A stretch of 50,178 nucleotides of DNA. Origin: a virus. The notes under the pieces were generated by a model. The model was not told the DNA's origin. It ran no database searches and saw only the letters and a program-made list of their open reading frames with translations. Within the stretch, counting starts at the first letter, position 1. The number at the start of each line of letters is the position of its first letter. The position numbers and the translations under genes were made by a program. This document shows positions 20,427 to 50,165 of the stretch, one piece after another. The DNA lies in IMG/VR virus record IMGVR_UViG_3300043410_001470, positions 1-50,178 of that record. One strand, given 5' to 3'.

Positions 20427-21390
20427 ATATCAAGTTATGCCGCAAGTTGTTATATATAGGGACATGTTTGATAAAGACGAGTTAAAAAGATTTTATGATC
20501 TTATGGATTTGTATGAGAATGATACAAGTCAATTTGAGATAACACACGAAGAACTTTCTACAAGAGGAGATAACCATGGAGTTCTTCCTCAAGAAAAAGA
20601 AGACATATCTCCATTAAATGAGTGGGTCCCGTGGCATACATTTGGAAAGAAAACATTTTTTAATTTTAAGCAAAAGCCAGCTAATATTGAAGATGAAAAT
20701 ATTGAGTTCTTGTATAACTTTAGACAAAAGCTATATGACATATTTGCTGTTGTTTTTAAAGATTATATTAATGAATGGTCAGAATCAGGATACTGGCCAG
20801 AGTATATTGATAATTGGAAGCTTAATGAGCAGGGTGCTACAAGAATGCATTATTCTGTTATTGAGGTTTTAAAGCATGACATTCACCCAGATAAAAAGCT
20901 TGCAATTACATTTCATACCGATGCACACAAGCATAGAGTTGGTCAACCAAGAGCACAACAGATTATAACCATTACAATTTACATTAATGATGACTATGAA
21001 GGCGGAGACGTAGAATTTTTAAATGAAATTGATGAAATTCCAAAGGTTATAACATATAAACCTGGAGCAGGAGATGTAACAGTTTTTCCTTCAGGGATAC
21101 CGTACTGGCATTCTGCAAAAGCAGTAACAGGCGGAAATAAAAAAGTTTTTGTAAGAGTTTTTGCTCAGTGGGATTATCCAGGTTCAAAAGAATGGGCTGA
21201 TGGTATTGCAGAGCATGGTGAAGAAAAATGGCTTCAAATTGTAGATGAGGATGTTCAGAAAAAAGTAGACACAGGAATTTATGATCGTGAAGTTAGAATA
21301 GAAGGTACTGAATGGCAGGATGTTACTCCAGCAGTTAAGGTAGACGTTAAGAAAGAAAACCATATTTATGTAGATGGAAGACTTCGATGA
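20419..21390 (+). CDS. 2-oxoglutarate/Fe(II) dioxygenase (prolyl-4-hydroxylase-like)
   Basis: 323 residues, GGAGG just upstream of the ATG. Double-stranded beta-helix core with the iron triad H166-x-D168 (FHTDAH) and distal H231 (YWHSAK), plus the 2OG-binding R246 (FVRVFAQ) and a LYIND-like ITIYINDDYEGGDV strand. Such enzymes hydroxylate proteins, nucleotides or small molecules. It is the largest of six such genes here; the N-terminal ~100 and C-terminal ~70 residues are extra and not recognised. Substrate unknown. Confidence 0.8.
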   Translation: MNKYQVMPQVVIYRDMFDKDELKRFYDLMDLYENDTSQFEITHEELSTRGDNHGVLPQEKEDISPLNEWVPWHTFGKKTFFNFKQKPANIEDENIEFLYNFRQKLYDIFAVVFKDYINEWSESGYWPEYIDNWKLNEQGATRMHYSVIEVLKHDIHPDKKLAITFHTDAHKHRVGQPRAQQIITITIYINDDYEGGDVEFLNEIDEIPKVITYKPGAGDVTVFPSGIPYWHSAKAVTGGNKKVFVRVFAQWDYPGSKEWADGIAEHGEEKWLQIVDEDVQKKVDTGIYDREVRIEGTEWQDVTPAVKVDVKKENHIYVDGRLR

Positions 21391-25161: not shown

Positions 25162-25729
25162 TAACCCCAATCTTATTTCAATAGGTAAAGATATTTACGT
25201 ATATAAAAATTTTTTAAATAAAGAAGAGTGTGAAGACTATACTAGTTTTGCTCGATCTTTACCTGAAGAAAAATGGGAAGCACAAAATCAAGATATTTCT
25301 ATTGCAACTAAAACATATTACTTAAGACCAATCCCTTCAAAAATTAGAAAAATTATTCCAGGGGAATTAAAAGTAGCCATGGGTTGTCAAGTTATTAGGC
25401 TTTTACAAGGCGGTAAATATGAACCGCATCATGACGCAAATATTTACTCTGATGTGATTGAAAGATTTAATAAGTATAAAGATGGTCAAAGTTTTGATAT
25501 TGAACTGTATCCACTGTATGGCATTGTTGTATATTTAAATGATTTTGAAGGTGGAGAGATTTATTACCCATTACAAGGTATTGAATATAAACCAAGTGCT
25601 GGCGATTTAATTATTCATAGTGCTGAAGAGCATTGTACGCATGGGACAAAACCAGTTACCTCTGGTGAAAGATATACTTATACGTCTAGCGTTGCAAAAG
25701 AGGTGAGGGTTGCAAAAAATGGAATTTGA
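25151..25729 (+). CDS. 2OG/Fe(II) dioxygenase between terminase genes
   Basis: 192 residues from the ATG at 25151, preferred because GAGGA lies 5 nt upstream (an in-frame TTG exists at 25139). Prolyl-4-hydroxylase fold: H93-x-D95 (EPHHDANIY), IVVYLNDFEGGEIYYP strand, distal H164 (CTHGTKPV) and R174 as 2OG ligand. It overlaps TerS by 11 nt and TerL by 11 nt, so it is co-translated with the packaging enzymes. Substrate unknown; DNA, capsid or terminase are all possible. Confidence 0.8.
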   Translation: MLFDNPNLISIGKDIYVYKNFLNKEECEDYTSFARSLPEEKWEAQNQDISIATKTYYLRPIPSKIRKIIPGELKVAMGCQVIRLLQGGKYEPHHDANIYSDVIERFNKYKDGQSFDIELYPLYGIVVYLNDFEGGEIYYPLQGIEYKPSAGDLIIHSAEEHCTHGTKPVTSGERYTYTSSVAKEVRVAKNGI

Positions 25730-28745: not shown

Positions 28746-28819
28746 TAGCTATTAGATATTATTTATATAAGTTTTTGAAAAAATTTAAAAAGAAAAAGAA
28801 AAATAGGTTTATATACTAA
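28736..28819 (+). CDS. Tiny basic peptide (tentative)
   Basis: 27 residues: a short hydrophobic/aromatic start and a very basic C-terminal half rich in Lys. AAGGAG lies 4-5 nt before the ATG, it starts inside the SGNH gene end and its stop touches the ATG of the carbamoyltransferase gene. It may be a real membrane-associated peptide or only a coupling device for translation of the next gene. Confidence 0.35.
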   Translation: MAMIAIRYYLYKFLKKFKKKKKNRFIY

Positions 28820-30243
28820 TGAAAATATTAGGTATTAATGAAACTTCTCATGATGCATCAATTTCTTTAATTGAAAATGGCAAAATTTTATTTGCAGGAC
28901 ATTCAGAGAGATATAGCAAACTAAAGAATGATTGGTATATCAATGATGATTTAGTTAATGATGTTTTGTCTTACGGTGCACCTGATGCTATAGCCTACTA
29001 TGAAAAACCTCTTCTAAAGGCCTCCAGGCTATTTTTAAAGGGTGGCTACGGAGACTGGAAGCCTAGATTTGATATTGCTGATATCCCAAGAAAATCTTTT
29101 AAACACCACTATTCCCACGCCTGCGCTGGCTACTATACAAGTAAATTTGATGACGCAGTCATTGTTGTGCTTGATGCCATAGGTGAATATAATACATCAA
29201 CAATATGGGTGGGTGAAGGATCTGTAATTAAAAGAGTACACAAAGATAACTACCCGTTTAGCTTTGGATTATTTTATTCAGCTTTTACAGATTTAATAGG
29301 ATTAAAACCAAATCAAGAAGAGTACATATTGATGGGCATGGCGGGATACGGAGATTGGTTAAAATATTATCAAAAGGTTTTAAGTTATTTTCCAAGTATA
29401 GACTACCAGCCGTACAACTTTCATAAAGGTATAACGGATTGGGGACAAGCTATAACCGAAGAAGATAAATTTCATATTGCAGCAGCAGTACAAAAAGTTT
29501 ATGAGCTTAGACTATTTGACTATATGGTGTGGGCAAAAAAAATGACTAAAAAAAAGAATTTAGTTTTTATGGGCGGCTGTGCTTTAAATTCATCTGCAAA
29601 TACAATGCTGTGGAAACTTTTTAATGATGTCTGGATCATGCCAAATCCAGGGGACGCTGGAAGCTCTTTAGGGGCTGCTGCTGCTTTTTATGGCAAACAC
29701 ATAAATTGGGAAAGTCCGTATTTGGGACATGATTTAGGTGGCGAGTACCCAGTTGATGAAGTTGTTCAAGAAATTTTAAAAAATAAAATAGCGGCAGTTG
29801 CAACTGGAAGAGCCGAATATGGACCAAGGGCGTTGGGGAATAGAAGTATTTTGGCAGACCCAAGAGATCCTAATATTAAAGATAAGGTTAATTTAATTAA
29901 ACAAAGAGAAGCATTTAGACCTTTTGCTCCAGTAGTAATGGAAGAACATGCGTCTAAATGGTTTGATATGAACTTTGCAAGTCCATATATGCAATACACT
30001 GTAAAATGTATACAGCCAGATAAGGTTCCTTCCGTTGTTCACATTGACGGTACATCACGTGTACAAACAATCAATAAAGAACAGCATCGAGGACTATGGA
30101 GAGTTTTAAATAAATTTTATTTGCAAACTGGAGTTCCTATGCTTTTAAACACTAGCTTAAATATAAAAGGACAGCCTTTATTGAACGATTTATCTGACAT
30201 TGAGCAGTGGGAACTAACATACAATACAAGGATAATAAGATAG
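28819..30243 (+). CDS. NodU/TobZ-family O-carbamoyltransferase
   Basis: 474 residues, somewhat shorter than NodU/TobZ (~560). N-terminal Kae1-like domain: ILGINETSHDASISL and the HHYSHACAGYY motif (H96, H97, H100) that binds iron; FMGGCALNSSANTML; NPGDAGSSLGAAAAFYG. C-terminal YrdC-like part: GRAEYGPRALGNRSILADPR (about 331-350), then EAFRPFAPVV and MLLNTSLNIKGQPL. The family moves a carbamoyl group from carbamoyl phosphate via carbamoyl-AMP to a hydroxyl of a sugar, antibiotic, or, in some phages, a hydroxymethylated base. It sits among three SGNH-type proteins. Confidence 0.88.
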   Translation: MKILGINETSHDASISLIENGKILFAGHSERYSKLKNDWYINDDLVNDVLSYGAPDAIAYYEKPLLKASRLFLKGGYGDWKPRFDIADIPRKSFKHHYSHACAGYYTSKFDDAVIVVLDAIGEYNTSTIWVGEGSVIKRVHKDNYPFSFGLFYSAFTDLIGLKPNQEEYILMGMAGYGDWLKYYQKVLSYFPSIDYQPYNFHKGITDWGQAITEEDKFHIAAAVQKVYELRLFDYMVWAKKMTKKKNLVFMGGCALNSSANTMLWKLFNDVWIMPNPGDAGSSLGAAAAFYGKHINWESPYLGHDLGGEYPVDEVVQEILKNKIAAVATGRAEYGPRALGNRSILADPRDPNIKDKVNLIKQREAFRPFAPVVMEEHASKWFDMNFASPYMQYTVKCIQPDKVPSVVHIDGTSRVQTINKEQHRGLWRVLNKFYLQTGVPMLLNTSLNIKGQPLLNDLSDIEQWELTYNTRIIR

Positions 30244-31023: not shown

Positions 31024-31097
31024 GCAACAGTAGCTTAGTCGGTTAAAGCCCCGAACTCATAATTCGGTAATCGTAGGTTCGAGTCCTACCTGTTGCA
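31024..31097 (+). tRNA. tRNA-Met (CAT), elongator-like or Ile-CAT
   Basis: Acceptor GCAACAG/CTGTTGC, D stem GCTT/AAGC, anticodon stem CCGAA/TTCGG with loop CTCATAA (anticodon CAT at 31058-31060), T stem GTAGG/CCTAC with TTCGAGT loop. The first base pair is intact G-C and there is no GGG/CCC anticodon stem, so it is not an initiator. A tRNA-Ile with modified CAT cannot be excluded. Confidence 0.85.
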
Positions 31098-31100
31098 CAG

Positions 31101-31173
31101 TGCCCCATAGCTCAGTTGGTAGAGCGCCGAACTGTTAATTCGGATGTCCCTGGATCGAGACCAGGTGGGGCAG
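31101..31173 (+). tRNA. tRNA-Asn (GTT)
   Basis: Acceptor TGCCCCA/TGGGGCA, D stem GCTC/GAGC, anticodon stem CCGAA/TTCGG with loop CTGTTAA, T stem CCTGG/CCAGG. The T loop reads ATCGAGA, with A instead of the near-universal T at its first position. Three bases separate it from the tRNA-Met. Confidence 0.9.
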
Positions 31174-31186
31174 CTTAAGGAGACAT

Positions 31187-32098
31187 ATGAAAAGAATGGT
31201 CTGGAATAAAGATAAATATCCTTTAGATTTTTTTGGAATAACAACAGAATCTTTAAAAGACGATATACTTTATGACTCAATGATTAGCTCACAACATAGA
31301 AAAAATAATATGGTTGATGAGTTAAAACTATCCGCTCCATATAAAACTTTTGATTACAAAGGTAAAATTCCAGTAGATTACTCAGTCAATTTTCACGGAT
31401 ATAGAGGCCCAGAGTTGTGTTCGGCAGATCTCTTAACTTCTGGATGCTCACAGTCTTTTGGAGTTGGTGTACCAGAACATTTAACTTGGACAAAATTTTT
31501 AGCAGAAAAAAATAAAATATCTTACAATAATTTATCATACCCAGGTAGCAGCACACAATCAATTGTTGAGGACATTTTTAAATATTTTGAAATATATGGA
31601 CATCCAAAATATTTAAGAATATTGCTTCCTGATTTTTTAAGATTTAAATTTATTAAAGCAGCCAATGAAAATATTTTTATTCAAAACTCTCAAGGTAAAA
31701 TCGGTGAATTTTTAAATACTGTTTCAGATGTTGATAGAACAATGCAAAAATATGAAAAAATGCCTGTTCCAATTGAAAAAATAATGCCAACTTCCGTACC
31801 ATTTAGATCCAGTTTGATGCATATAAAAATGTTAGAGCAATATGTATCACAAACAAACATAGATTTTAAATGGGCTACGTGGCACAATGAGTTGAATGTT
31901 CATTTTGAAAAGCATGACTATGGTTTTAAAAATTATACAAGATATATTAATACAAATAAAATAGACTATACAAAATGTCACGAAGATATCAAATTAATTG
32001 ATCCTAGATTTTTTAACGTAGGTACTGATCCACAAGAACATATGGGGTCACATGCACATGTTCATTATTCTGAACTCTTGTCTCTAGACAAAATTTAA
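31187..32098 (+). CDS. SGNH/GDSL-hydrolase-like protein, paralogue
   Basis: 303 residues, AAGGAG before the ATG. TSGCSQSFGVGVPEHLTW (Ser near residue 88), NNLSYPGSSTQSIVEDIFKYF and LLPDFLRF match the same blocks in the 27744 protein, and GSHAHVHY near the end matches its His-rich C-terminus. The two proteins are thus paralogues kept on both sides of the carbamoyltransferase and tRNA-Met/Asn. Probable acyl hydrolase/transferase of unknown substrate. Confidence 0.65.
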   Translation: MKRMVWNKDKYPLDFFGITTESLKDDILYDSMISSQHRKNNMVDELKLSAPYKTFDYKGKIPVDYSVNFHGYRGPELCSADLLTSGCSQSFGVGVPEHLTWTKFLAEKNKISYNNLSYPGSSTQSIVEDIFKYFEIYGHPKYLRILLPDFLRFKFIKAANENIFIQNSQGKIGEFLNTVSDVDRTMQKYEKMPVPIEKIMPTSVPFRSSLMHIKMLEQYVSQTNIDFKWATWHNELNVHFEKHDYGFKNYTRYINTNKIDYTKCHEDIKLIDPRFFNVGTDPQEHMGSHAHVHYSELLSLDKI

Positions 32099-32113
32099 TC
32101 AATATACTATTAT
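32085..32113 (+). promoter_or_regulatory. Promoter of second tRNA group
   Basis: TAGACA at 32085-32090, 17 bp, TATTAT at 32108-32113; transcription would begin near 32120, two bases before tRNA-Arg. The same TAGACA -35 variant is used at 42229. Confidence 0.55.
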
Positions 32114-32121
32114 GTACATAT

Positions 32122-32193
32122 ACCTCTGTAGCTCAGCGGAAGAGCAACAGACTTCTAATCTGTTGGTCGCTGGTTCGATTCCAGCCAGGGGTG
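32122..32193 (+). tRNA. tRNA-Arg (TCT)
   Basis: Acceptor ACCTCTG/CAGGGGT (one T-G pair), D stem GCTC/GAGC, anticodon stem ACAGA/TCTGT with loop CTTCTAA, T stem GCTGG/CCAGC with TTCGATT loop. It reads AGA codons, which are the main Arg codon in most genes of this window. Confidence 0.92.
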
Positions 32194-32194
32194 C

Positions 32195-32267
32195 GTTCCT
32201 ATAGCTCAGTTGGTAGAGCAGCAGACTTTTAATCTGCGGGTCGATGGTTCGAGACCATCTGGGGACA
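32195..32267 (+). tRNA. tRNA-Lys (TTT)
   Basis: Acceptor GTTCCTA/TGGGGAC with three G-T pairs, D stem GCTC/GAGC, anticodon stem GCAGA/TCTGC with loop CTTTTAA, T stem GATGG/CCATC with TTCGAGA loop. One base after the tRNA-Arg. Confidence 0.9.
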
Positions 32268-32270
32268 CAA

Positions 32271-32343
32271 GCCCCTCTAGCCCAGCGGTAGAGGCAGTGG
32301 ACTTAAAATCCATACAGCGCTGGTTCGAATCCAGCGAGGGGCA
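32271..32343 (+). tRNA. tRNA with TAA anticodon (nominal Leu) but short variable arm
   Basis: Acceptor GCCCCTC/GAGGGGC, D stem GCC/GGC, anticodon stem GTGGA/TCCAT with loop CTTAAAA (anticodon TAA at 32304-32306), five-base variable region ACAGC, T stem GCTGG/CCAGC with TTCGAAT loop. The total of 73 nt is a class I tRNA; leucine tRNAs normally carry a long variable arm. It should read UUA, but its charging identity is uncertain. Confidence 0.8.
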
Positions 32344-32359
32344 CGTATAAATATGAAAA

Positions 32360-34295: not shown

Positions 34296-34699
34296 TGTTT
34301 GAATATTATGTAAAAAAGGTAAACAAAATTGTTGATGGAGACACTATTGATGTTGACATAGACTTGGGCTTTGACATATCGTTTAGTTCACGAGTGAGAC
34401 TTGCTGGAATCGATACTCCAGAATCCAGAACATCGGACAAGATGGAAAAAGCACTAGGGCTAGAATCAAAAGCCTATCTTAAGCATGCAATAGATAGTGC
34501 AAAATCAGTTATTATCAAAACTGAAAAATTAGATAGTTCAGAAAAATATGGAAGAATATTGGGCTGGGTTTTTCTAGACGGATCAGATAAGTCTATCAAT
34601 CAAGAAATGATAGATAAGGGATATGCTTGGGGATATTTGGGTGAAACCAAAGTTAAAGACTTTGAAGCATTGGCTAAAACTAGAGCTAAAAATAAATGA
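34295..34699 (+). CDS. Thermonuclease-like (SNase) nuclease
   Basis: 134 residues, one-base overlap with the endolysin stop. VDGDTIDVDIDLGF, RVRLAGIDTPES, EKYGRILGWVFLDG and MIDKGYAW are the ordered SNase motifs, with the Asp/Arg/Glu catalytic set (D in VDGDT, R in RVRLAGIDTPE, R in KYGRILG). No signal peptide. It would degrade host DNA or RNA or act in nucleotide salvage. 4-nt overlap with the next gene. Confidence 0.85.
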   Translation: MFEYYVKKVNKIVDGDTIDVDIDLGFDISFSSRVRLAGIDTPESRTSDKMEKALGLESKAYLKHAIDSAKSVIIKTEKLDSSEKYGRILGWVFLDGSDKSINQEMIDKGYAWGYLGETKVKDFEALAKTRAKNK

Positions 34700-35367
34700 A
34701 GTTAACTGAAGCAAAAAAGATCATAGAAGATGCTACAGAAAATAAAACACCAGCATTTTTTAAGGGTCTTTTTTGCTCAGTTCCAACATGGGATCAATTT
34801 TTAAATCATTTAGATTATCAATTAAATAAAGGTCCAGCAATTAAAATAATGAATGCTGATCCTAAATACACAGTATTTAATGGTGTATTAAGAAAGCATA
34901 ATTTTTATTATCAAACTCGTGATGTTGTTAATGAGCCGAACAAAGCAAAAAACTTTTTCCCTGAAATTATTAATGTTAAAAACTTTTTTGATATTATTTA
35001 TCAAGAAAATGCTTGGGGTGGCACATCTTTTATTAATTTTTCTTCTGGAGAACCTAATGTTCCAACACACGCAGATGATTGGGTAAATGTTCATTGGCAA
35101 TGTCAGGGGACTACCGTCTGGGAAACAAGAATTAACCAAGATGACGAAGAGCCATCACAAACTTATTTAATGGAACCAGGCGATGTTATAGTGATTCCAA
35201 CTGGCGTACAGCATGCAGTAAACTTTAGTGGTCCCAGGGCTGGAATAGTTTTGTCTTATCAATTTAAAGATAGTGAAGATAGTATGTATAGGCCTAAAGA
35301 ATTAAAAGAAACAGGAAAGCATTCAGTACGACCATTTATAATGCCAGAAAACTACGACTGGGACTGA
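34696..35367 (+). CDS. Cupin/JmjC-like Fe(II)/2OG oxygenase, copy 1
   Basis: 223 residues. H125-x-D127 (PTHADDW) and distal H173 (GVQHAV), within VHWQCQGTTVWE and MEPGDVIVIPTGVQH, match the JmjC/cupin-8 fold (HxD...H with PGD before the last His). It is a clear paralogue of the gene at 46673 (both share an HLDYQ and a WQC motif). Members hydroxylate proteins or tRNA; substrate here is unknown. Its 3' end overlaps a convergent oxygenase gene on the minus strand by 16 nt. Confidence 0.7.
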   Translation: MKLTEAKKIIEDATENKTPAFFKGLFCSVPTWDQFLNHLDYQLNKGPAIKIMNADPKYTVFNGVLRKHNFYYQTRDVVNEPNKAKNFFPEIINVKNFFDIIYQENAWGGTSFINFSSGEPNVPTHADDWVNVHWQCQGTTVWETRINQDDEEPSQTYLMEPGDVIVIPTGVQHAVNFSGPRAGIVLSYQFKDSEDSMYRPKELKETGKHSVRPFIMPENYDWD

Positions 35368-35939
35368 TTAATTCTTACAAAACCAGCTAAACTAAATCTT
35401 TCACCATTTTTTACAGCTCTAACTCCGTGTCTATAAATCATTCCAGCAGGATGAACAACCAGTGATCTTGCAATAGGTTTTATCTCTAAATTAGCTTTAG
35501 GGTAATAAATTTCGCCGCCGTCAAAATTATCATTTAGGTAAATTACGGCACCGTATCTAATGTCTGGAGATAAACCAGAATCGTGATGCTCTTTCATGTA
35601 ATCACCATCTCTAAATTTATAAATATTATAAAGTGGATCTAAATTATAATTAGTTTGATAATGATCATTGATAATATGTATACAGCGAGAATTTATTGAT
35701 TCAACTAGGTTTTGCGCTTTTGCAAATAGGTGCGGATTTAACTGAAGCCAAAGCATCTGCTTAGTCCAATCCCCGTAGGCTGCATTTACCAAATCCGCAT
35801 CTGGACCAAGGCTTTTTCTATATGCATCCCACTCTTCTTCGGTTGCATTTTGTGCCATTTTTATTAAAAAATCAGCTTCTTCTTCGGTTATTATGTCTTT
35901 AATCATTATTACATATTTATCGACATTGACTTTTTCCAT
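35352..35939 (-). CDS. 2OG/Fe(II) dioxygenase on the minus strand
   Basis: 195 residues from the ATG at 35939 (an upstream in-frame TTG at 35954 is less likely, since TACAAT lies 6 nt before the ATG). Prolyl-4-hydroxylase fold: KEHHDSG gives H-x-D, AVIYLNDNFDGGEIYYP is the core strand, YRHGVRAV holds the distal His, and the following GERFSLAG has the Arg 2OG ligand. It resembles the gene between the terminase genes. It is the only clear minus-strand gene in the window. Confidence 0.8.
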   Translation of the reverse strand: MEKVNVDKYVIMIKDIITEEEADFLIKMAQNATEEEWDAYRKSLGPDADLVNAAYGDWTKQMLWLQLNPHLFAKAQNLVESINSRCIHIINDHYQTNYNLDPLYNIYKFRDGDYMKEHHDSGLSPDIRYGAVIYLNDNFDGGEIYYPKANLEIKPIARSLVVHPAGMIYRHGVRAVKNGERFSLAGFVRINQSQS

Positions 35940-40907: not shown

Positions 40908-41656
40908 ATTTTCAAATTACTAATCTTGCAGATAAAATAGATGTATATCATAATGCTATTCCTAATTTTGAAGAATTTATAAACAATGTTTATTCTGTTG
41001 ATAAAGAATTATGGAAAAATTGGGGATCTTTTGGGTATTATACAACACTTACAACAGAAGCTTTTTCTGGAGATCCACATAGTTTTATTACAAAAACAAG
41101 AGAAACAGATTTAAATAAAAAATATATAAGCCAAGTGTTTTCAGAAATTTTTAAAAATATTACATCTGATTACATTAAAAGAAATGAAATAGATTTACCA
41201 AATTGGCACTCATCAGAACCTCAATTATGTAAGTATTTTCCTAAAAAAGTAAAGTATACAGGGCTAATACTACCTTTTCATACTGACTATCAACAAGAAA
41301 GAAGTCAGATGCCTGGGATTAAGCATGGTATTACAGCAAACTTATACATTAACGACGACTATGAAGGTGGAGAAGTGCTGTTTTTAGTAGAGCCAGATGA
41401 TCAAATTATTTCTTATAAAGCAAAAGCTGGGGATTTAATAGTTTTTCCATCATCAGCCCCCTACTACCACGGTGTTAAAAACGTATTGGATGGAGAAAAG
41501 TACATAATTAGGTCATTTTGGCACTGGAGATATGAAGGAGACCCAGAATATTTAGCAGAAAAAGAAAAATGGGACCCATTGGAATGGAAAGAGAAAGAAC
41601 AATTGAGACAAAGAATAGAAAGAAATAAATATATGAAATGGATTAAGGTTAATTAA
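40904..41656 (+). CDS. 2OG/Fe(II) dioxygenase (prolyl-4-hydroxylase-like)
   Basis: 250 residues. H126-x-D128 (PFHTDYQ), core strand TANLYINDDYEGGEVLF, GDLIVFPSSAPYYHGV with distal H189, and R203 (IIRSFWHW) as 2OG ligand. The closest relative in the window is the 20419 enzyme (same INDDYEGG strand and pre-His motif). Part of the WhiB operon. Substrate unknown. Confidence 0.82.
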   Translation: MNFQITNLADKIDVYHNAIPNFEEFINNVYSVDKELWKNWGSFGYYTTLTTEAFSGDPHSFITKTRETDLNKKYISQVFSEIFKNITSDYIKRNEIDLPNWHSSEPQLCKYFPKKVKYTGLILPFHTDYQQERSQMPGIKHGITANLYINDDYEGGEVLFLVEPDDQIISYKAKAGDLIVFPSSAPYYHGVKNVLDGEKYIIRSFWHWRYEGDPEYLAEKEKWDPLEWKEKEQLRQRIERNKYMKWIKVN

Positions 41657-43389: not shown

Positions 43390-44325
43390 ATGAACAAAAA
43401 ACTAATAACTGCTTTACTATCACTTACACTTGCTTTACCATTAGCCGTAACATCAGCTAATGCTGCGCCAGCAGCACCTGCTTTAGCAATTTTAGATGTA
43501 GGTATTGACGATACTCTACCTGCATTTCAAGGAAAAATTATTACTGAAGTTTGTATTTTAGAATGGACCTCTTGTCCAAATGGAACTAATTTTGAAGAAA
43601 GTTCACATGCAGCAGTAGTCCCTAATCAATTTATTAATTTAAATGGTTTTGACCACGGAACCTTTATGACATCAACTGCGCTTCAAGCAAATCCTAATAT
43701 TAATATTGTGTTTATTAAAATTATTGGTCATGATCCAAAAACTGGTAAAAGACAATATGCGGGCGAAGCAACCGTATACAAAGCGCTACAATGGGTAAAA
43801 CTTAATGCTACAAAATATAACATTAAGGCTGTAACAATGTCTCAAGGACACCACGCACTTGGAGCTGTAGGTACAGATTATTGCCCGAAAACACCGATTA
43901 CACAGCAAGCAATTGAAGATTTGATTGCAATTAACGTTCCAACATTTTTTGCCGTAGGCAACAATGCGGATTATAAGCGCATAGATTGGCCATCATGTAT
44001 TGATTCATCAATTTCAGTTGGACAGGTAGATAGAGGGAATTTGATTGGAAGCACCAGTAACGTGGATGCTGTTAAGCTAGATTTCTTTACACTAGGGTAT
44101 GTTACAGTGGCAGGCCCAGGTGGAGTAGTTAAAAATATTTCAGGATCCTCTTCTGCAACTCAAGTTGCAGCAGCAAAATGGTTGCAATTTGTATCTGCAA
44201 AACCAAATGCAACATATACACAAACACTAAATGCTTTAACGTCTACAACAAAAACAACTGTTGGAAAGATGGGTTCATTTAATAAATTAATGGATATTGA
44301 TTCAGCTTTGGGGGTACAACTATAA
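43390..44325 (+). CDS. Secreted subtilisin-like serine protease (S8)
   Basis: 311 residues. Signal peptide 1-25 (hydrophobic core LLSLTLALPLAV, cleavage after ANA). S8 triad: D36 (LAILDVGID), H89 (GFDHGTFMTS) and S254 (GSSSATQVAAA); oxyanion Asn near 191 (FAVGNNAD). The usual GTSMATPHVA block is shortened by one residue, so the fold is divergent. No propeptide is evident; four or more Cys suggest disulphides after export. Leaderless start from a strong promoter. Possible targets: host surface proteins, competitor phage receptors, or extracellular protein. Confidence 0.8.
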   Translation: MNKKLITALLSLTLALPLAVTSANAAPAAPALAILDVGIDDTLPAFQGKIITEVCILEWTSCPNGTNFEESSHAAVVPNQFINLNGFDHGTFMTSTALQANPNINIVFIKIIGHDPKTGKRQYAGEATVYKALQWVKLNATKYNIKAVTMSQGHHALGAVGTDYCPKTPITQQAIEDLIAINVPTFFAVGNNADYKRIDWPSCIDSSISVGQVDRGNLIGSTSNVDAVKLDFFTLGYVTVAGPGGVVKNISGSSSATQVAAAKWLQFVSAKPNATYTQTLNALTSTTKTTVGKMGSFNKLMDIDSALGVQL

Positions 44326-44580: not shown

Positions 44581-45075
44581 ATGCAAACATTTTTACCATT
44601 TCCAGCTAAACGTAACAGTCTCGATGCATTAGACAACAAGCGTTTAAATAAACAAATATTAGAGTGTTATCAAATACTCAACATTTTAACTGGCACCTCT
44701 GGATCAAATGCTTGGCGGAATCATCCAGCAGTTCTTATGTGGGAAGGTGCTGAAGCAGAACTTTATCGTTATGCTATGACAGCAGTTGTATTGGCTGATA
44801 TGCGTGGCATTAAAACAGATAAAAATAAAGCTAATTTAGATTCTTTATCTCGTAATCGTAAAGCATTAATGTGGGAAGACAATACTCCTATATGGGCAAG
44901 TACTCCAACAATTATTAAACGTGTTAACGCAACACATAAAGCTAATCTATACAGAAAAGATCCAATTTATTATGCAGAGTTTGCATCATCTGTAAATGAT
45001 CCATACAACAAACCATGTTGTGATAGATGCCAGTACTACTGGCCTACCCATGAGGTCAAATATGCTGCAGCTTAA
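44581..45075 (+). CDS. Pyrimidine-dimer DNA glycosylase (endonuclease V-like)
   Basis: 164 residues, beginning MQTFLPFPAKRNSLDALDNKR then KQILECYQILNIL, SNAWRNHPAVLMWEGAEAEL, typical of the pyrimidine-dimer glycosylase family (PF03013). The enzyme excises UV-induced cyclobutane dimers, suited to a phage in sunlit water. The C-terminus carries an extra CDRCQYYWP Cys pair. Overlaps the thioredoxin gene by 14 nt. Confidence 0.83.
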   Translation: MQTFLPFPAKRNSLDALDNKRLNKQILECYQILNILTGTSGSNAWRNHPAVLMWEGAEAELYRYAMTAVVLADMRGIKTDKNKANLDSLSRNRKALMWEDNTPIWASTPTIIKRVNATHKANLYRKDPIYYAEFASSVNDPYNKPCCDRCQYYWPTHEVKYAAA

Positions 45076-45367
45076 TGAAGATAGTTTTAATGATTTTATT
45101 AATTCAGATAGGCCAGTATTGGTTGATTTCTGGGCTGAATGGTGTGGGCCTTGTAAAAAAATGCTTCCCATACTTGAAGAAATTGATTCTGAGGGGGCAG
45201 TACTCATTGGTAAGTTAAATGTTGATGAGAATCCAACAAAATCTGATGAATACTCTATACAATCGATCCCAACTATGGTACTATTTATTAATGGTCAACC
45301 AGTTCATAGGGTAGTGGGCGCAATGCCTAAACACCGAATTATGAAGGAGATAGATCAATGGATCTAG
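45062..45367 (+). CDS. Thioredoxin
   Basis: 101 residues from the ATG at 45062, with GAGG 6 nt upstream; the longer open frame back to 44996 has no such signal and falls inside the glycosylase gene. VLVDFWAEWCGPCKKM gives C28-x-x-C31, followed by the cis-Pro SIPTMVLF and GA at the end. Normal length. Reduces disulphides; could feed ribonucleotide reductase, peroxiredoxin (AhpC below) or serve as polymerase processivity factor. Confidence 0.9.
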   Translation: MLQLNEDSFNDFINSDRPVLVDFWAEWCGPCKKMLPILEEIDSEGAVLIGKLNVDENPTKSDEYSIQSIPTMVLFINGQPVHRVVGAMPKHRIMKEIDQWI

Positions 45368-45575: not shown

Positions 45576-46631
45576 ATGAAGTCATTTAAGAAAATCGCTC
45601 TTGGTGTGGTTGCAGCCATTACCTTGAGTTCACTTGTTGCAACACCTGCAAGTGCTGCAGTATCAACAACTCTTACAGTTGGTGGTTCGGCACCCGCAAC
45701 TGCTGGTACAACAGCAGCAACTGCAATTGCTCTTCCAGTTCCTGCAGATAACTCTGTAGATTCTGCAGATGCTTTAAAGATTGCATTAACTGGTTTAGAT
45801 ACAGGAACAGTTGTTTCTGCATCTGTAACAAATGGTAAGATCGTAACCGCTCTTGCTACAGTTGCAGCACCAGTAACTGCATCTGCTGGTTCAACATCAG
45901 CATCAATCAGCACAGGTACAGGTACTACTGCTGATCTATATGTATTTACAACTTCGACTGCTGCAGGCACAGTTTCTGTAACAGTTGCTGGTAATACAAC
46001 AGTTTACTATTTCAACGGTACAGCAGGAGCACTTAATACAATTGCTCTAGACGCCCCAACATCTGGCGCTGCTGGAACTGTTTCAACAATTAAGGTGCTT
46101 GGTTATGACGTGTTTGGAAACGCTAAGGGTAATGCATCAATTAGCCTTCAGTATGTTACCCCAACTGCTTCAACAACATATGCATTAACAACTGACACTG
46201 CCACAGCAACTCTTGGTACAAAGACACAGGATGTTACACTTCCTGCATCTGGTACAGTTACTCTTATTGCTACTGCTACGGTGGCTACTGCTGTAACTGG
46301 TCTGACAGCACCTCTTGGTGTTGTTGTTAAGACTGCAGTAGTTCGTGATCTTGCATCAGAGCTTGCTGCAAAAAATGCAGAACTAGCTACTGTTGTGGCA
46401 CAACTTGCTGCTGAAAAGGCTGCAGGCGCAAAGGCTCTTGCCGATGCAAAGGCTCTTGCCGATGCAGAGCTAGCAAAGTCTAAGGCGGAAACTGCTGCAT
46501 CAAATGCTGCGCTTGCTAAGGCAAACGTAGATAATGCTGCGGCTCTTGCTGCAGTAAAGAAAGCATTTAATGCACTTGCTGCAAAATGGAACAAAGCTAA
46601 TCCAAAGGCTAAAGTTTCAACACTTAAGTAA
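45576..46631 (+). CDS. Secreted S-layer-like Ala/Thr-rich surface protein, GC-rich
   Basis: 351 residues, AAGGAG upstream. Signal peptide about 1-27 (KKIALGVVAAITLSSLVATP then ASA). Beta-rich Thr/Ala/Gly repeats (Ig-like, TVSVTVAGNTTVYYF) to ~255, then an Ala/Lys/Glu coiled coil and a basic end KKAFNALAAKWNKANPKAK. In 45601-45720 I count 60 G/C of 120, versus 13 of 60 at 46681-46740, so base use differs strongly from the neighbours. Most likely a captured host surface-layer-like gene, perhaps for display or superinfection exclusion. Confidence 0.7.
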   Translation: MKSFKKIALGVVAAITLSSLVATPASAAVSTTLTVGGSAPATAGTTAATAIALPVPADNSVDSADALKIALTGLDTGTVVSASVTNGKIVTALATVAAPVTASAGSTSASISTGTGTTADLYVFTTSTAAGTVSVTVAGNTTVYYFNGTAGALNTIALDAPTSGAAGTVSTIKVLGYDVFGNAKGNASISLQYVTPTASTTYALTTDTATATLGTKTQDVTLPASGTVTLIATATVATAVTGLTAPLGVVVKTAVVRDLASELAAKNAELATVVAQLAAEKAAGAKALADAKALADAELAKSKAETAASNAALAKANVDNAAALAAVKKAFNALAAKWNKANPKAKVSTLK

Positions 46632-46672: not shown

Positions 46673-47215
46673 ATGTTAAATGAAATAATTTCAGCTAAAA
46701 AAAATAACCGCATACATTTATTTAAAAATATATTAGCGGAAACTCCTGAATGGTCCAATTTTATTGATCATTTAGATTATCAATATAAAAATACTAATGT
46801 TTTTTATACTCCAAACGATAAAGATCGAGAACATTTTATCAATGGAGTTTTATTTAAAAATCCATTTTATTTAAATATAACATATCCAACAATAGAATTT
46901 TATCCACAAATAGACTTATTCTTTAAAAAATTTAATTTTTTGCCAAACAACGGAAAACCTCTTTCAGCTTATGTTAATTTTGCAGCAGAGCCTCCATCTT
47001 CTATGCATAGCGACAGATACGATCATTTCTACTGGCAATGTATAGGAAAAACTAGGTGGGTTTCTGAAGAATTTGATGAGATTGTATCCCCAGGGGATGT
47101 ACTTTATGTACCTGGAAAATTAGAGCATCAGGTTTTTACCTTTGAACCTAGGGCTGCCCTTCAATTTGAATATAAATTACCTACTGGACTACTACAAAAT
47201 ATAATGATAGAATAG
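46673..47215 (+). CDS. Cupin/JmjC-like Fe(II)/2OG oxygenase, copy 2
   Basis: 180 residues. H112-x-D114 (SSMHSDRYDHFYWQC) and distal H152 (GKLEHQV after SPGDVLYVP). Paralogue of the protein at 34696: same HLDYQ, YWQC/HWQC, PGD..P..H order, but without the ~40-residue C-terminal extension. Begins 9 nt after the terminator with no clear ribosome binding site. Substrate unknown. Confidence 0.65.
   Translation: MLNEIISAKKNNRIHLFKNILAETPEWSNFIDHLDYQYKNTNVFYTPNDKDREHFINGVLFKNPFYLNITYPTIEFYPQIDLFFKKFNFLPNNGKPLSAYVNFAAEPPSSMHSDRYDHFYWQCIGKTRWVSEEFDEIVSPGDVLYVPGKLEHQVFTFEPRAALQFEYKLPTGLLQNIMIE
47185..47213 (+). promoter_or_regulatory. Leaderless promoter, extended -10
   Basis: TGGACT at 47185-47190, 17 bp, TAGAAT at 47208-47213 preceded by TGA, 6 nt to the ATG at 47220. 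Confidence 0.55.
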
Positions 47216-48205: not shown

Positions 48206-48393
48206 TGTGTATGATGTGTGGATGTGGCGAACCTGGAAATAATGGAGACATTAAATCACAGGATATGCCAATGATGGTTGTATCAGATATGTTTGGCGCA
48301 GATATGGATGAAATGGGCGCTGGAGGAATTAATGACCGTGACTCAGAAAGTACAACAACACTTTCTGGAGATGTGGTAAATGATGCAGACTGA
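48205..48393 (+). CDS. Small Met/Cys-rich acidic protein
   Basis: 62 residues. MCMMCGCGEPGNNGD start (three Cys), then an acidic Met/Asp-rich region. The Cys/Met-rich N-terminus could bind a soft metal or a cluster. Overlaps the next gene by 14 nt. Function unknown. Confidence 0.5.
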   Translation: MCMMCGCGEPGNNGDIKSQDMPMMVVSDMFGADMDEMGAGGINDRDSESTTTLSGDVVNDAD

Positions 48394-48592
48394 TAATTTT
48401 AAAAAAGATGACGGTACTGGCATGGTGCCACCAGCTAACGCTGGTGCACCTGCTGGTGCTGTAACAAGTAATCAAACACCAAAGAGATATCCTAAGCAGG
48501 GTATTAAAATTGATAGAAATAAACACGGCATAAGAAGAGAAACTTCTACTATGCCAAAACAACCTAAAAAAACTGGTAGAAAAAAAGTTTAA
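48380..48592 (+). CDS. Small basic Pro/Ala-rich protein
   Basis: 70 residues, disordered: PPANAGAPAGAV centre and a strongly basic end (PKQPKKTGRKKV). The tail suggests nucleic-acid binding. Start could be the first or second of two adjacent Met codons. Function unknown. Confidence 0.5.
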   Translation: MMQTDNFKKDDGTGMVPPANAGAPAGAVTSNQTPKRYPKQGIKIDRNKHGIRRETSTMPKQPKKTGRKKV

Positions 48593-48593
48593 C

Positions 48594-48683
48594 TTGTGCT
48601 TAAAATGCGGTAATTGCACAAAAGAGCATCTTCCATCTGTGGATGATGCTGTTGATTCTGTATTGGACAACTCAATTTTATGA
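48594..48683 (+). CDS. Tiny Cys peptide upstream of ahpC (tentative)
   Basis: 29 residues from a TTG at 48594: CLKCGNC start then an acidic helix (PSVDDAVDSVLD); its stop shares ATGA with the peroxiredoxin gene. No ribosome binding site is visible, so this could be chance; the stop-start overlap and the Cys pattern shared with neighbours argue for it. Confidence 0.3.
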   Translation: MCLKCGNCTKEHLPSVDDAVDSVLDNSIL

Positions 48684-49216
48684 AAACAGTAGGACAAAAA
48701 TTAGGTGACTTTGCTGTCACAGGAGTAAAGCCTGGAGCCTTGGCTTATGAAGATAGCTCATTTGAAACAATTACTCAAGATTCTTTTCCAGGCAAATGGA
48801 AGATAATTGTTTTTTATCCAAAAGACTTTACATTTGTATGCCCGACAGAAATTGTTGCATATGATGCTTTAGTTAATGATTTTAATGACAGAGACGCAGT
48901 TCTTATGACTGGATCAGTAGATAATGAATTTTGTAAAGTTGCATGGAGAAATGCACACGAAGATTTAAAGAAAACAAATTCATGGTCTTTTGCTGATACT
49001 GCTCATCAACTAGCAAATGATCTTGGAATTCATCATTCATCTGGCGTCACATATCGTGCAACATTTATTGTTGATCCAGATAACATCATTCAGCACGTAA
49101 CTTGTAACAACCTAGATGTTGGACGTAACGCTGACGAAGCCCTTAGAGTTTTAGATGCATTACAAACAGGTGAACTTTGTGCATGCAACCGACCACTTGG
49201 GGGAGACACACTCTAA
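48680..49216 (+). CDS. ahpC: Alkyl hydroperoxide reductase peroxiredoxin AhpC
   Basis: 178 residues. Peroxidatic C54 in FYPKDFTFVCPTE, then a canonical Prx core (SVDNEFCKVAWRNAH), and near the C-terminus ELCACN with C167 and C169, the CxC resolving pair known from mycobacterial AhpC. It reduces peroxides and is recharged by AhpD, whose gene follows with a one-base overlap. Phage-borne AhpC is rare. The thioredoxin at 45062 is another possible reductant. Confidence 0.92.
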   Translation: MKTVGQKLGDFAVTGVKPGALAYEDSSFETITQDSFPGKWKIIVFYPKDFTFVCPTEIVAYDALVNDFNDRDAVLMTGSVDNEFCKVAWRNAHEDLKKTNSWSFADTAHQLANDLGIHHSSGVTYRATFIVDPDNIIQHVTCNNLDVGRNADEALRVLDALQTGELCACNRPLGGDTL

Positions 49217-49728
49217 TGTCATGGGTTGATGCTCTTAAAGAATCTCTTCCAGAATACGCAAAAGATATTAAGCTTAATTTAGATGCTGTAATTAATAGAA
49301 GTACAATAGATGCAGAATTAGCTACACATTTAGCTTTAGCAGCAGCTTTTGCTACAGGTAATGGTAAGCTGATTGCTTTTATTGCATCAGGGTCAACCAA
49401 TGAGATTGAAAAAAATGCTGCATTAACAGCAGGCGCAATTATGGCACAAAACAATGTTTGGTACCCATATTTAGAGATGGCAGACGATGCTAATCTTAAA
49501 GGCTTACCTGCACAGCTTAGAATGAATGCTATTGCATCGCATGGGGGTACTTCAAAAGGAAATTTTGAGGCCTACTCACTTGCATCTTCAATTATTGGTA
49601 AATGTCATTTTTGTGTAAAAGCACATTATGAAACTTTAAAAGAAGAAGGATATTCTTTAGAGCAATTGCGTGATATCGGAAGAATTGCAGCAACTGTTAA
49701 TGCTTTAGCAAAGATCCTTTCAGCATAA
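49216..49728 (+). CDS. ahpD: Alkylhydroperoxidase AhpD
   Basis: 170 residues from the ATG at 49216, overlapping the ahpC stop; the open frame extends further upstream but inside ahpC. E118, C130, C133 and H137 match the mycobacterial AhpD active-site numbering (FEAYSLA, then CHFCVKAH). The second His is at position 131, not 132, so the proton relay differs slightly. AhpD reduces AhpC disulphides, using dihydrolipoamide relay in mycobacteria. Coupled to a CDGSH protein gene. Confidence 0.9.
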   Translation: MSWVDALKESLPEYAKDIKLNLDAVINRSTIDAELATHLALAAAFATGNGKLIAFIASGSTNEIEKNAALTAGAIMAQNNVWYPYLEMADDANLKGLPAQLRMNAIASHGGTSKGNFEAYSLASSIIGKCHFCVKAHYETLKEEGYSLEQLRDIGRIAATVNALAKILSA

Positions 49729-49889
49729 TGCCTACAGTGTATGGGGCTGCTGTTATATGTCAATGTGGCAGATCAGCTTCATACCCTGTATGTGATGGTT
49801 CTCATGGAAGGCCAATTGTTGAAACCAACAATGAAATATCTGAAGATCCAAACCCTAGAAAAAGCGGATCATGGAAAAGAGAATCGTAA
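49728..49889 (+). CDS. CDGSH iron-sulfur domain protein (mitoNEET-like)
   Basis: 53 residues. CQCGRSASYPVCDGSH matches the CDGSH consensus Cys-x-Cys-x2-Ser-x3-Pro-x-Cys-Asp-Gly-Ser-His exactly, so three Cys and one His should bind a redox-active 2Fe-2S cluster. TAATG overlap with ahpD places it in the same operon. A single-domain form; role in electron or cluster transfer within a peroxide-defence unit is inferred. Confidence 0.88.
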   Translation: MPTVYGAAVICQCGRSASYPVCDGSHGRPIVETNNEISEDPNPRKSGSWKRES

Positions 49890-50032
49890 CAGTAAAAGCT
49901 TATTGTATTTATTGTAAAAAAAATACTGAAGGCAAAATAAAAGAAATACGTAAGACAGATTCTGGAAAATATTTACATATTGGAGAATGTCCAGTATGCT
50001 ATTATGAAATTAAAAGGTTAACAAATGATTAA
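49871..50032 (+). CDS. Small zinc-ribbon protein
   Basis: 53 residues, starting within the CDGSH gene. CIYC at 12-15 and CPVC at 40-43 frame a beta-hairpin of Lys/Arg-rich strands, a zinc ribbon. Overlaps the next gene by 8 nt. Function unknown. Confidence 0.5.
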   Translation: MEKRIVTVKAYCIYCKKNTEGKIKEIRKTDSGKYLHIGECPVCYYEIKRLTND

Positions 50033-50165
50033 TTATTTTAAATCTATATTTTGTTATTTTAAAGGTCATAGCTTAGCTTATGCTGGAGAATGCCCCTATA
50101 CTGGCTCTACCTACGATTATTGTCATAGATGCTCAGCTATGGTGCCAAGAAATATAGCAATTTAA
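50025..50165 (+). CDS. Small Cys/Tyr-rich protein
   Basis: 46 residues. FCYFKGHSL, ECPYTG and CHRCSAMV give a Cys-His ... Cys ... CxxC pattern, as in many small phage zinc proteins. The stop lies just before a promoter at the window edge. Function unknown. Confidence 0.5.
   Translation: MINYFKSIFCYFKGHSLAYAGECPYTGSTYDYCHRCSAMVPRNIAI

Follow-up and report, generated by a model that had tools for sequence, protein, structure and literature searches.

The stretch of DNA that we analyzed (the window; 50,178 nt) was IMG/VR record IMGVR_UViG_3300043410_001470, which was linear by record class. The window was a tailed-phage contig of a freshwater-type virus of bacteria, and outside the genes at its right end it coded for terminase, endolysin, tail, primase, helicase, and UvsX-like proteins. 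The window resembled the Streptomyces phages Gilson, Annadreamy, and Faust (~130 kb), because its terminase was 62% identical and its DnaB helicase was up to 66% identical to Streptomyces phage proteins. Based on these identities, the host was likely to be an actinobacterium.

A run of overlapping genes was located at the right end of the window. Specifically, ahpC (48680-49216) coded for a 178-amino acid 2-Cys peroxiredoxin, ahpD (49216-49728) for a 170-amino acid AhpC reductase, and the third gene (49728-49889) for a 53-amino acid CDGSH protein. The original prediction had described these three genes as an overlapping peroxide defense operon; the ORFs were exactly as described, and all three products scored above the curated Pfam cut-offs. 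The ahpC/ahpD and ahpD/CDGSH overlaps were 1 nt each (TAATG). A 29-amino acid Cys-rich ORF with a TTG start (LCLKCGNCTKEH..., 48594-48683) was located immediately upstream, and its TGA overlapped the ahpC ATG (ATGA). Given these overlaps, the run from the 29-amino acid ORF through the CDGSH gene was probably translationally coupled. A conserved small gene (48380-48592), which had 102 relatives in viral contigs, preceded this run. On the other side, a gene for a 52-amino acid DUF5679-like protein (49871-50032; PF18930, 0.0012, under the cut-off) overlapped the end of the CDGSH gene, and a 46-amino acid Cys-containing protein of the YFKGH family (50025-50165) belonged to the same block of small genes and recurred after CDGSH in relatives. 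Two other genes of interest were found further upstream: a thioredoxin gene with a CGPC motif (44996-45367; PF00085, 1e-27) and a gene for a JmjC/cupin-type Fe(II) oxygenase-like protein in which HxD...H was present (46673-47215; PF08007, 1.1e-7). All of these genes were on the plus strand.

The identities of AhpC and AhpD were clear. AhpC carried an AhpC-TSA domain (PF00578, 1.3e-23; 83.7 bits versus a Pfam cut-off of 26), and its best relative of solved structure was Mycobacterium tuberculosis (Mtb) AhpC (2bmx, 1.1e-45). The peroxidatic C54 (FTFVC54PTE) and the C-terminal C167 and C169 (ELC167AC169N) were kept in 12 phage AhpCs, with the exception of A168P in one of them. The CxC motif had been called actinobacterial; the motif was indeed present, but it was not specific to that group, as Burkholderiales AhpCs contained ELCPCNR. 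In the case of AhpD, a CMD domain (PF02627, 6.3e-9; 36.1 bits versus a cut-off of 23) and a profile match to Mtb AhpD (1gu9, 4e-29) were found. E118, C130, C133, and H137, which the original prediction had listed in mycobacterial numbering, were all present in the protein's own numbering, aligned with the same residues of Mtb AhpD, and were invariant in 12 aligned phage AhpDs. The phage and Mtb pairs also had adjacent genes, the peroxidatic Cys, and the C-terminal CxC in common; the downstream CDGSH gene was a feature of the window.

The relay had been expected to look complete. This held for a phage-borne pair conserved in hundreds of contigs, but not for the fifth Mtb relay residue, His132, which was Phe in the window (C-H-F-C versus C-S-H-C in Mtb) and Phe or Tyr in the phage versions (CHFC or CDYC). 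His132 is not absolutely conserved among AhpDs (PMC3141380), and thus Phe132 was compatible with the AhpD assignment.

Relatives of this pair were abundant in viral contigs. We found 413 AhpC relatives, the best 80 of which were 91-96% identical to the window protein. Complete peroxide-reducing pairs are rare in phages. AhpD yielded no matches in 50,697 public phage records, yet the stretches of viral contigs that encoded it numbered at least 589. The two genes were adjacent, with AhpD directly after AhpC, in 77 of the 79 contigs that contained both. The dN/dS values between relatives were about 0.01-0.06 for AhpC and about 0.02-0.1 for AhpD. These low values and the invariant relay residues indicated that the pair was maintained for function, and AhpCD is very probably a working peroxide-reducing system of the phage, with an activity that is predicted from its sequence. 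Glutathione peroxidase genes were also located near ahpCD in related phages, at L066 1867-2310 (PF00255, 4.8e-37) and L073 7274-7897 on the minus strand (6.3e-15). One viral-looking contig (L102, JAURFW010000053.1) that was binned as a Bacteroidota MAG had partial ahpC and ahpD genes with two other genes between them.

The closest bacterial pairs among those found were from Burkholderiales, with AhpC 65% and AhpD up to 64% identical to the phage proteins. Bacterial genomes were scanned with two peptide patterns drawn from the phage alignment, which biased the scan to the Burkholderiales type, and actinobacterial donors are therefore still conceivable. Burkholderiales pairs (e.g., Bordetella; B. 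thailandensis, PMC6626918) shared the CHFC motif and the ahpC-ahpD order with the phage. In contrast, their genes were separated by 54-81 bases in the five loci measured, whereas the phage genes overlapped by 1 nt, and their ahpD loci, unlike the window, had no CDGSH motif within 5 kb. An actinobacterial origin of ahpCD was not supported, because the AhpDs of Rhodococcus/Tsukamurella plasmids were 36-40% identical to phage AhpD and that of Cupriavidus was 52% identical, in a comparison that left out freshwater Actinobacteria.

The CDGSH protein scored 34.3 bits against zf-CDGSH (PF09360, 2.8e-8; Pfam cut-off, 29.5), and it shared the exact CxCxxS...PxCDGSH motif with NEET/CDGSH proteins (mitoNEET, bacterial CDGSH proteins, and PF09360). 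It had been described as an exact CDGSH 2Fe-2S protein. The 3Cys-1His ligand motif (C11-x-C13...C22-D-G-S-H26) was complete, but the domain was not: the match spanned only profile positions 29-47/48, and the N-terminal half of the Pfam domain was missing. Similarly, solved CDGSH proteins, which the phage protein matched at 3.8e-7, had a fuller N-terminal part, whereas the phage protein had only 10 residues before the motif. An AlphaFold2 model of the stand-alone monomer was poor (mean pLDDT, 49.5). We therefore classed it as a CDGSH-motif protein and not as a NEET-fold protein. The core was under purifying selection, with pN far below pS. A search of the 50,697 phage records with the CDGSH protein returned one weak match only (E, 0.3), to a human-fecal phage record. 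To our knowledge, the bacterial functions of CDGSH motifs are poorly known. Further tiny CDGSH-like proteins were seen in other contexts (L021 5698-5841, L066 2764-2949, L187 11053, L203 4303-4458, and L242 8296-8430).

The original prediction had staked itself on the linkage of CDGSH to ahpCD in relatives, and that linkage recurred: besides the window, 16 related contigs from several sublineages contained the full ahpC-ahpD-CDGSH trio, and one more trio was cut by a contig end. In most ahpCD phage contigs, however, ahpD was followed not by CDGSH but by a tRNA-like sequence or by 2OG oxygenase-like, SGNH-like, or other genes. Moreover, no CDGSH motif was present near ahpD in 80 bacterial loci with flanks of at most 5 kb. 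Two contigs (L088 and L089) had the flanking genes and CDGSH in the same order as the window, with no ahpCD between them. We considered whether these were phages that lacked ahpCD and rejected the idea, since an AhpD scan and a whole-record search located ahpCD elsewhere in these two records, at a distance of ~15 kb.

Co-occurrence was counted by whole-record searches of the 34 contigs that were at least 70 kb in length, because the census based on the conserved small gene upstream of the run covers the adjoining region only. AhpD was present in 21 of these contigs and the CDGSH module in 7. Both were found in 6 contigs, AhpD only in 15, CDGSH only in 1, and neither in 12, and the association was not significant (Fisher p, 0.21; the contigs were not independent). 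The contig with CDGSH only was G019, which had no AhpD match. CDGSH was uncoupled from ahpCD in both directions. Taken together, the adjacency in the trios, the separation elsewhere, and the Fisher test indicated that the adjacency was real and the coupling loose. Because 16-17 contigs, like the window, had CDGSH directly after ahpD, it may still have a link with AhpCD.

The small gene at 48380-48592 was upstream of a variable cargo site, and what came after its 102 relatives differed (ahpCD, CDGSH, or other genes). Homologues of the 29-amino acid Cys-rich ORF (in L088/L089, L220, and L238) preceded cargo that differed among relatives (ahpCD, a 2OG oxygenase, or a P-loop kinase) and thus marked the variable site. 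The DUF5679-like gene was downstream of CDGSH in the lineage with 50/51-amino acid CDGSH proteins. The YFKGH-family gene was found 3' of CDGSH in relatives with and without adjoining ahpCD, and the thioredoxin gene was found in relatives with and without nearby ahpCD.

Unlike NEET/CDGSH proteins, the CDGSH motif was fused to 2OG oxygenases in related phages, and three architectures were identified. In the first, CxCGRSxxYPxCDNTH was N-terminal to JmjC_2 in a single ORF of 260-266 amino acids (L073, 3368-4168; L074; L076). A dedicated scan found this fusion in seven contigs, one of which was cut by the contig end, and a profile built from the JmjC-type gene at 46673-47215 in the window matched the L073 fusion (3.2e-24). 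In the second, the motif was N-terminal to a 2OG-FeII_Oxy_3 domain (PF13640) in the 120-kb contig G019 (L427, 1492-2229), in an ORF with a TTG start and a GGAGA site upstream. In the third, a CDGSH-like tail (CICGxSxDxPYCDNTHK) was C-terminal to another oxygenase of 274-279 amino acids (L432, 763-1599; L429, 766-1602; L433 and L434, 766-1587; L435-L464), in phages of the group with stand-alone CDGSH proteins. A JmjC protein was also considered as the constant partner of CDGSH; this idea was rejected because the lineage with 43-amino acid CDGSH proteins had no JmjC gene nearby.

The C-terminal fusion was the best characterized of the three. All 29 complete oxygenase homologues that were at least 72% identical carried the CDGSH fusion, and homologues at 31-39% identity were unfused. 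Its Pfam score was under the cut-off; H105, D107, H187, and R197 (the HxD...H triad and the 2OG-binding Arg) were invariant in 16 sequences. AlphaFold2 yielded a confident oxygenase core (mean pLDDT, 74; pTM, 0.76) and a CDGSH tail of low confidence, and the 50 best PDB matches to the fold were all Fe(II)/2OG oxygenases. No matches to the fused oxygenase were found in the 50,697 public phage records. A CDGSH-oxygenase fusion was also present in three genomes with stand-alone CDGSH and ahpCD and in one genome with ahpCD apart. When the stand-alone gene and the C-terminal fusion were in one record, they were 19-25 kb apart on opposite strands, and the same spacing would put a fusion of the window phage past the end of the window.

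How much weight these fusions can bear depends on how common oxygenases were. PF13640 matches numbered 8-13 per genome in 13 of the 14 records searched, and the many-oxygenase phages included G001, G019, G037, G038, G014, G035, G043, G020, G026, G046, G059, and G060. The window itself had four PF13640 matches (20908-21153, 25385-25684, 35373-35624 on the minus strand, and 41270-41521) and two JmjC-type genes (34696-35367 and 46673-47215). Because oxygenases were so numerous, fusions to them were more likely to arise by chance and were less surprising, and the three architectures may not represent three independent events.

The analysis showed the genes and their motifs, their conservation and the selection on them, the pairing of ahpC with ahpD, the uncoupling of CDGSH and its fusions, and the oxygenase fold; the biochemistry that follows, including the electron sources and the metal and partner of the CDGSH protein, is what we propose. 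C54 of AhpC would reduce H2O2 or an organic peroxide, the C-terminal CxC would resolve the oxidized enzyme, and the CxxC of AhpD would re-reduce AhpC. AhpD would obtain its electrons either from a thioredoxin or from the lipoamide/Lpd system of the host, which is the source in Mycobacterium and Burkholderia. A route through host enzymes would be the simplest mechanism, with the phage thioredoxin (44996-45367) as an alternative reductant. The CDGSH gene, despite its place in the same overlapping run, would belong to a block of small metal-binding genes that is inherited separately. The CDGSH protein would most likely bind [2Fe-2S] and may keep phage Fe(II)/2-oxoglutarate oxygenases active by supplying electrons or iron, and we suggest that CDGSH modules were fused to oxygenases in related phages because they serve such enzymes. 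Because Fe(II) oxygenases suffer damage from peroxide, AhpCD and an Fe-S helper would both fit beside such enzymes without acting on each other. As a whole, this reading, in which AhpCD removes peroxide with a host reductant and CDGSH is a separately inherited Fe-S protein for oxygenase upkeep, seemed to us about evenly balanced between right and wrong. For the CDGSH protein in particular, a role as an oxygenase partner, which we would put a little short of an even chance, was likelier than the roles weighed below.

One such role was that of an independent small metal-binding protein, for example in iron or cluster storage or in host interaction, which came to lie beside ahpCD through the shared cargo site. 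The unrelated cargo that followed the 29-amino acid ORF in relatives (ahpCD, 2OG oxygenase, and P-loop kinase) and the tiny CDGSH genes in unrelated contexts (L021, L066, L187, L203, and L242) were what such a protein would predict. Repeated fusion to one enzyme class suggested a more specific role, however, and the core motif was strongly conserved, so we regarded an independent protein as rather unlikely.

The original prediction had proposed that the CDGSH protein could itself take part in peroxide defense, by passing electrons to AhpD/AhpC or by sensing peroxide. Membership of CDGSH in the relay was not supported, and we now consider such a third component improbable. CDGSH did overlap ahpD in the window, 16 other complete trios came from several sublineages, and AhpD was present in 6 of the 7 long contigs with CDGSH. 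On the other hand, CDGSH was missing nearby in most ahpCD phages and in all 80 bacterial ahpD loci, it kept its site in L088/L089 when ahpCD was elsewhere, it occurred without AhpD in G019, the p value across the 34 long contigs was 0.21, and related CDGSH modules were fused to Fe(II)/2OG oxygenases. In addition, the AhpCD systems of Mycobacterium and Burkholderia work without CDGSH (PMC6626918). Misassigned host DNA or bacterial contamination could account for a pair of common bacterial type but was highly improbable, because the pair was located among phage genes in many contigs of up to ~120 kb as one strand-consistent run, and the nearest bacterial AhpC and AhpD were ~65% and 64% identical compared to 91-96% for the best 80 of the 413 phage AhpCs.

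Returning to an oxygenase partner, a broader and more tentative proposal, which we rate as doubtful, is that CDGSH [2Fe-2S] modules might serve Fe(II)/2OG oxygenases specifically, as redox or iron partners, in a large freshwater actinophage-like group, either stand-alone (43-53 amino acids) or fused, and might be made with AhpCD to keep a large set of oxygenases reduced. If true, this would give the Fe(II)/2OG superfamily a novel type of donor for electrons or iron. The fusions themselves suggest a way in which the activity of these oxygenases might be maintained.

Freshwater phages, including those of Actinobacteria, are described as carrying genes for defense against reactive oxygen species (ROS), among them thioredoxin, glutaredoxin, glutathione peroxidase, SOD, and ferritin genes (Kavagutti et al. 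2019, PMC6802176). The main text of that study names neither AhpC nor AhpD, and the phages as described there are without CDGSH, unlike the window phage. Literature searches on AhpC/AhpD or CDGSH in phages returned no description of the AhpCD pair, the trio, CDGSH, or the oxygenase fusions. Phage ROS defense was known from that study, and the CDGSH-oxygenase fusions were more novel than the trio. The pair extends phage ROS defense to a defined two-protein relay that would plug into host metabolism.

Several other features were observed in the window. A Nol-like carbamoyltransferase gene was located at 28819-30243 (PHROG 1601, 4.3e-103), and five tRNA genes, for Met, Asn, Arg(tct), Lys, and Leu(taa), were located at 31024-32344. 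The proteins at 43390-44325 and 45576-46631 both started with a signal peptide-like sequence, and the former, judged by eye, resembled a secreted protease and was considered a putative one.
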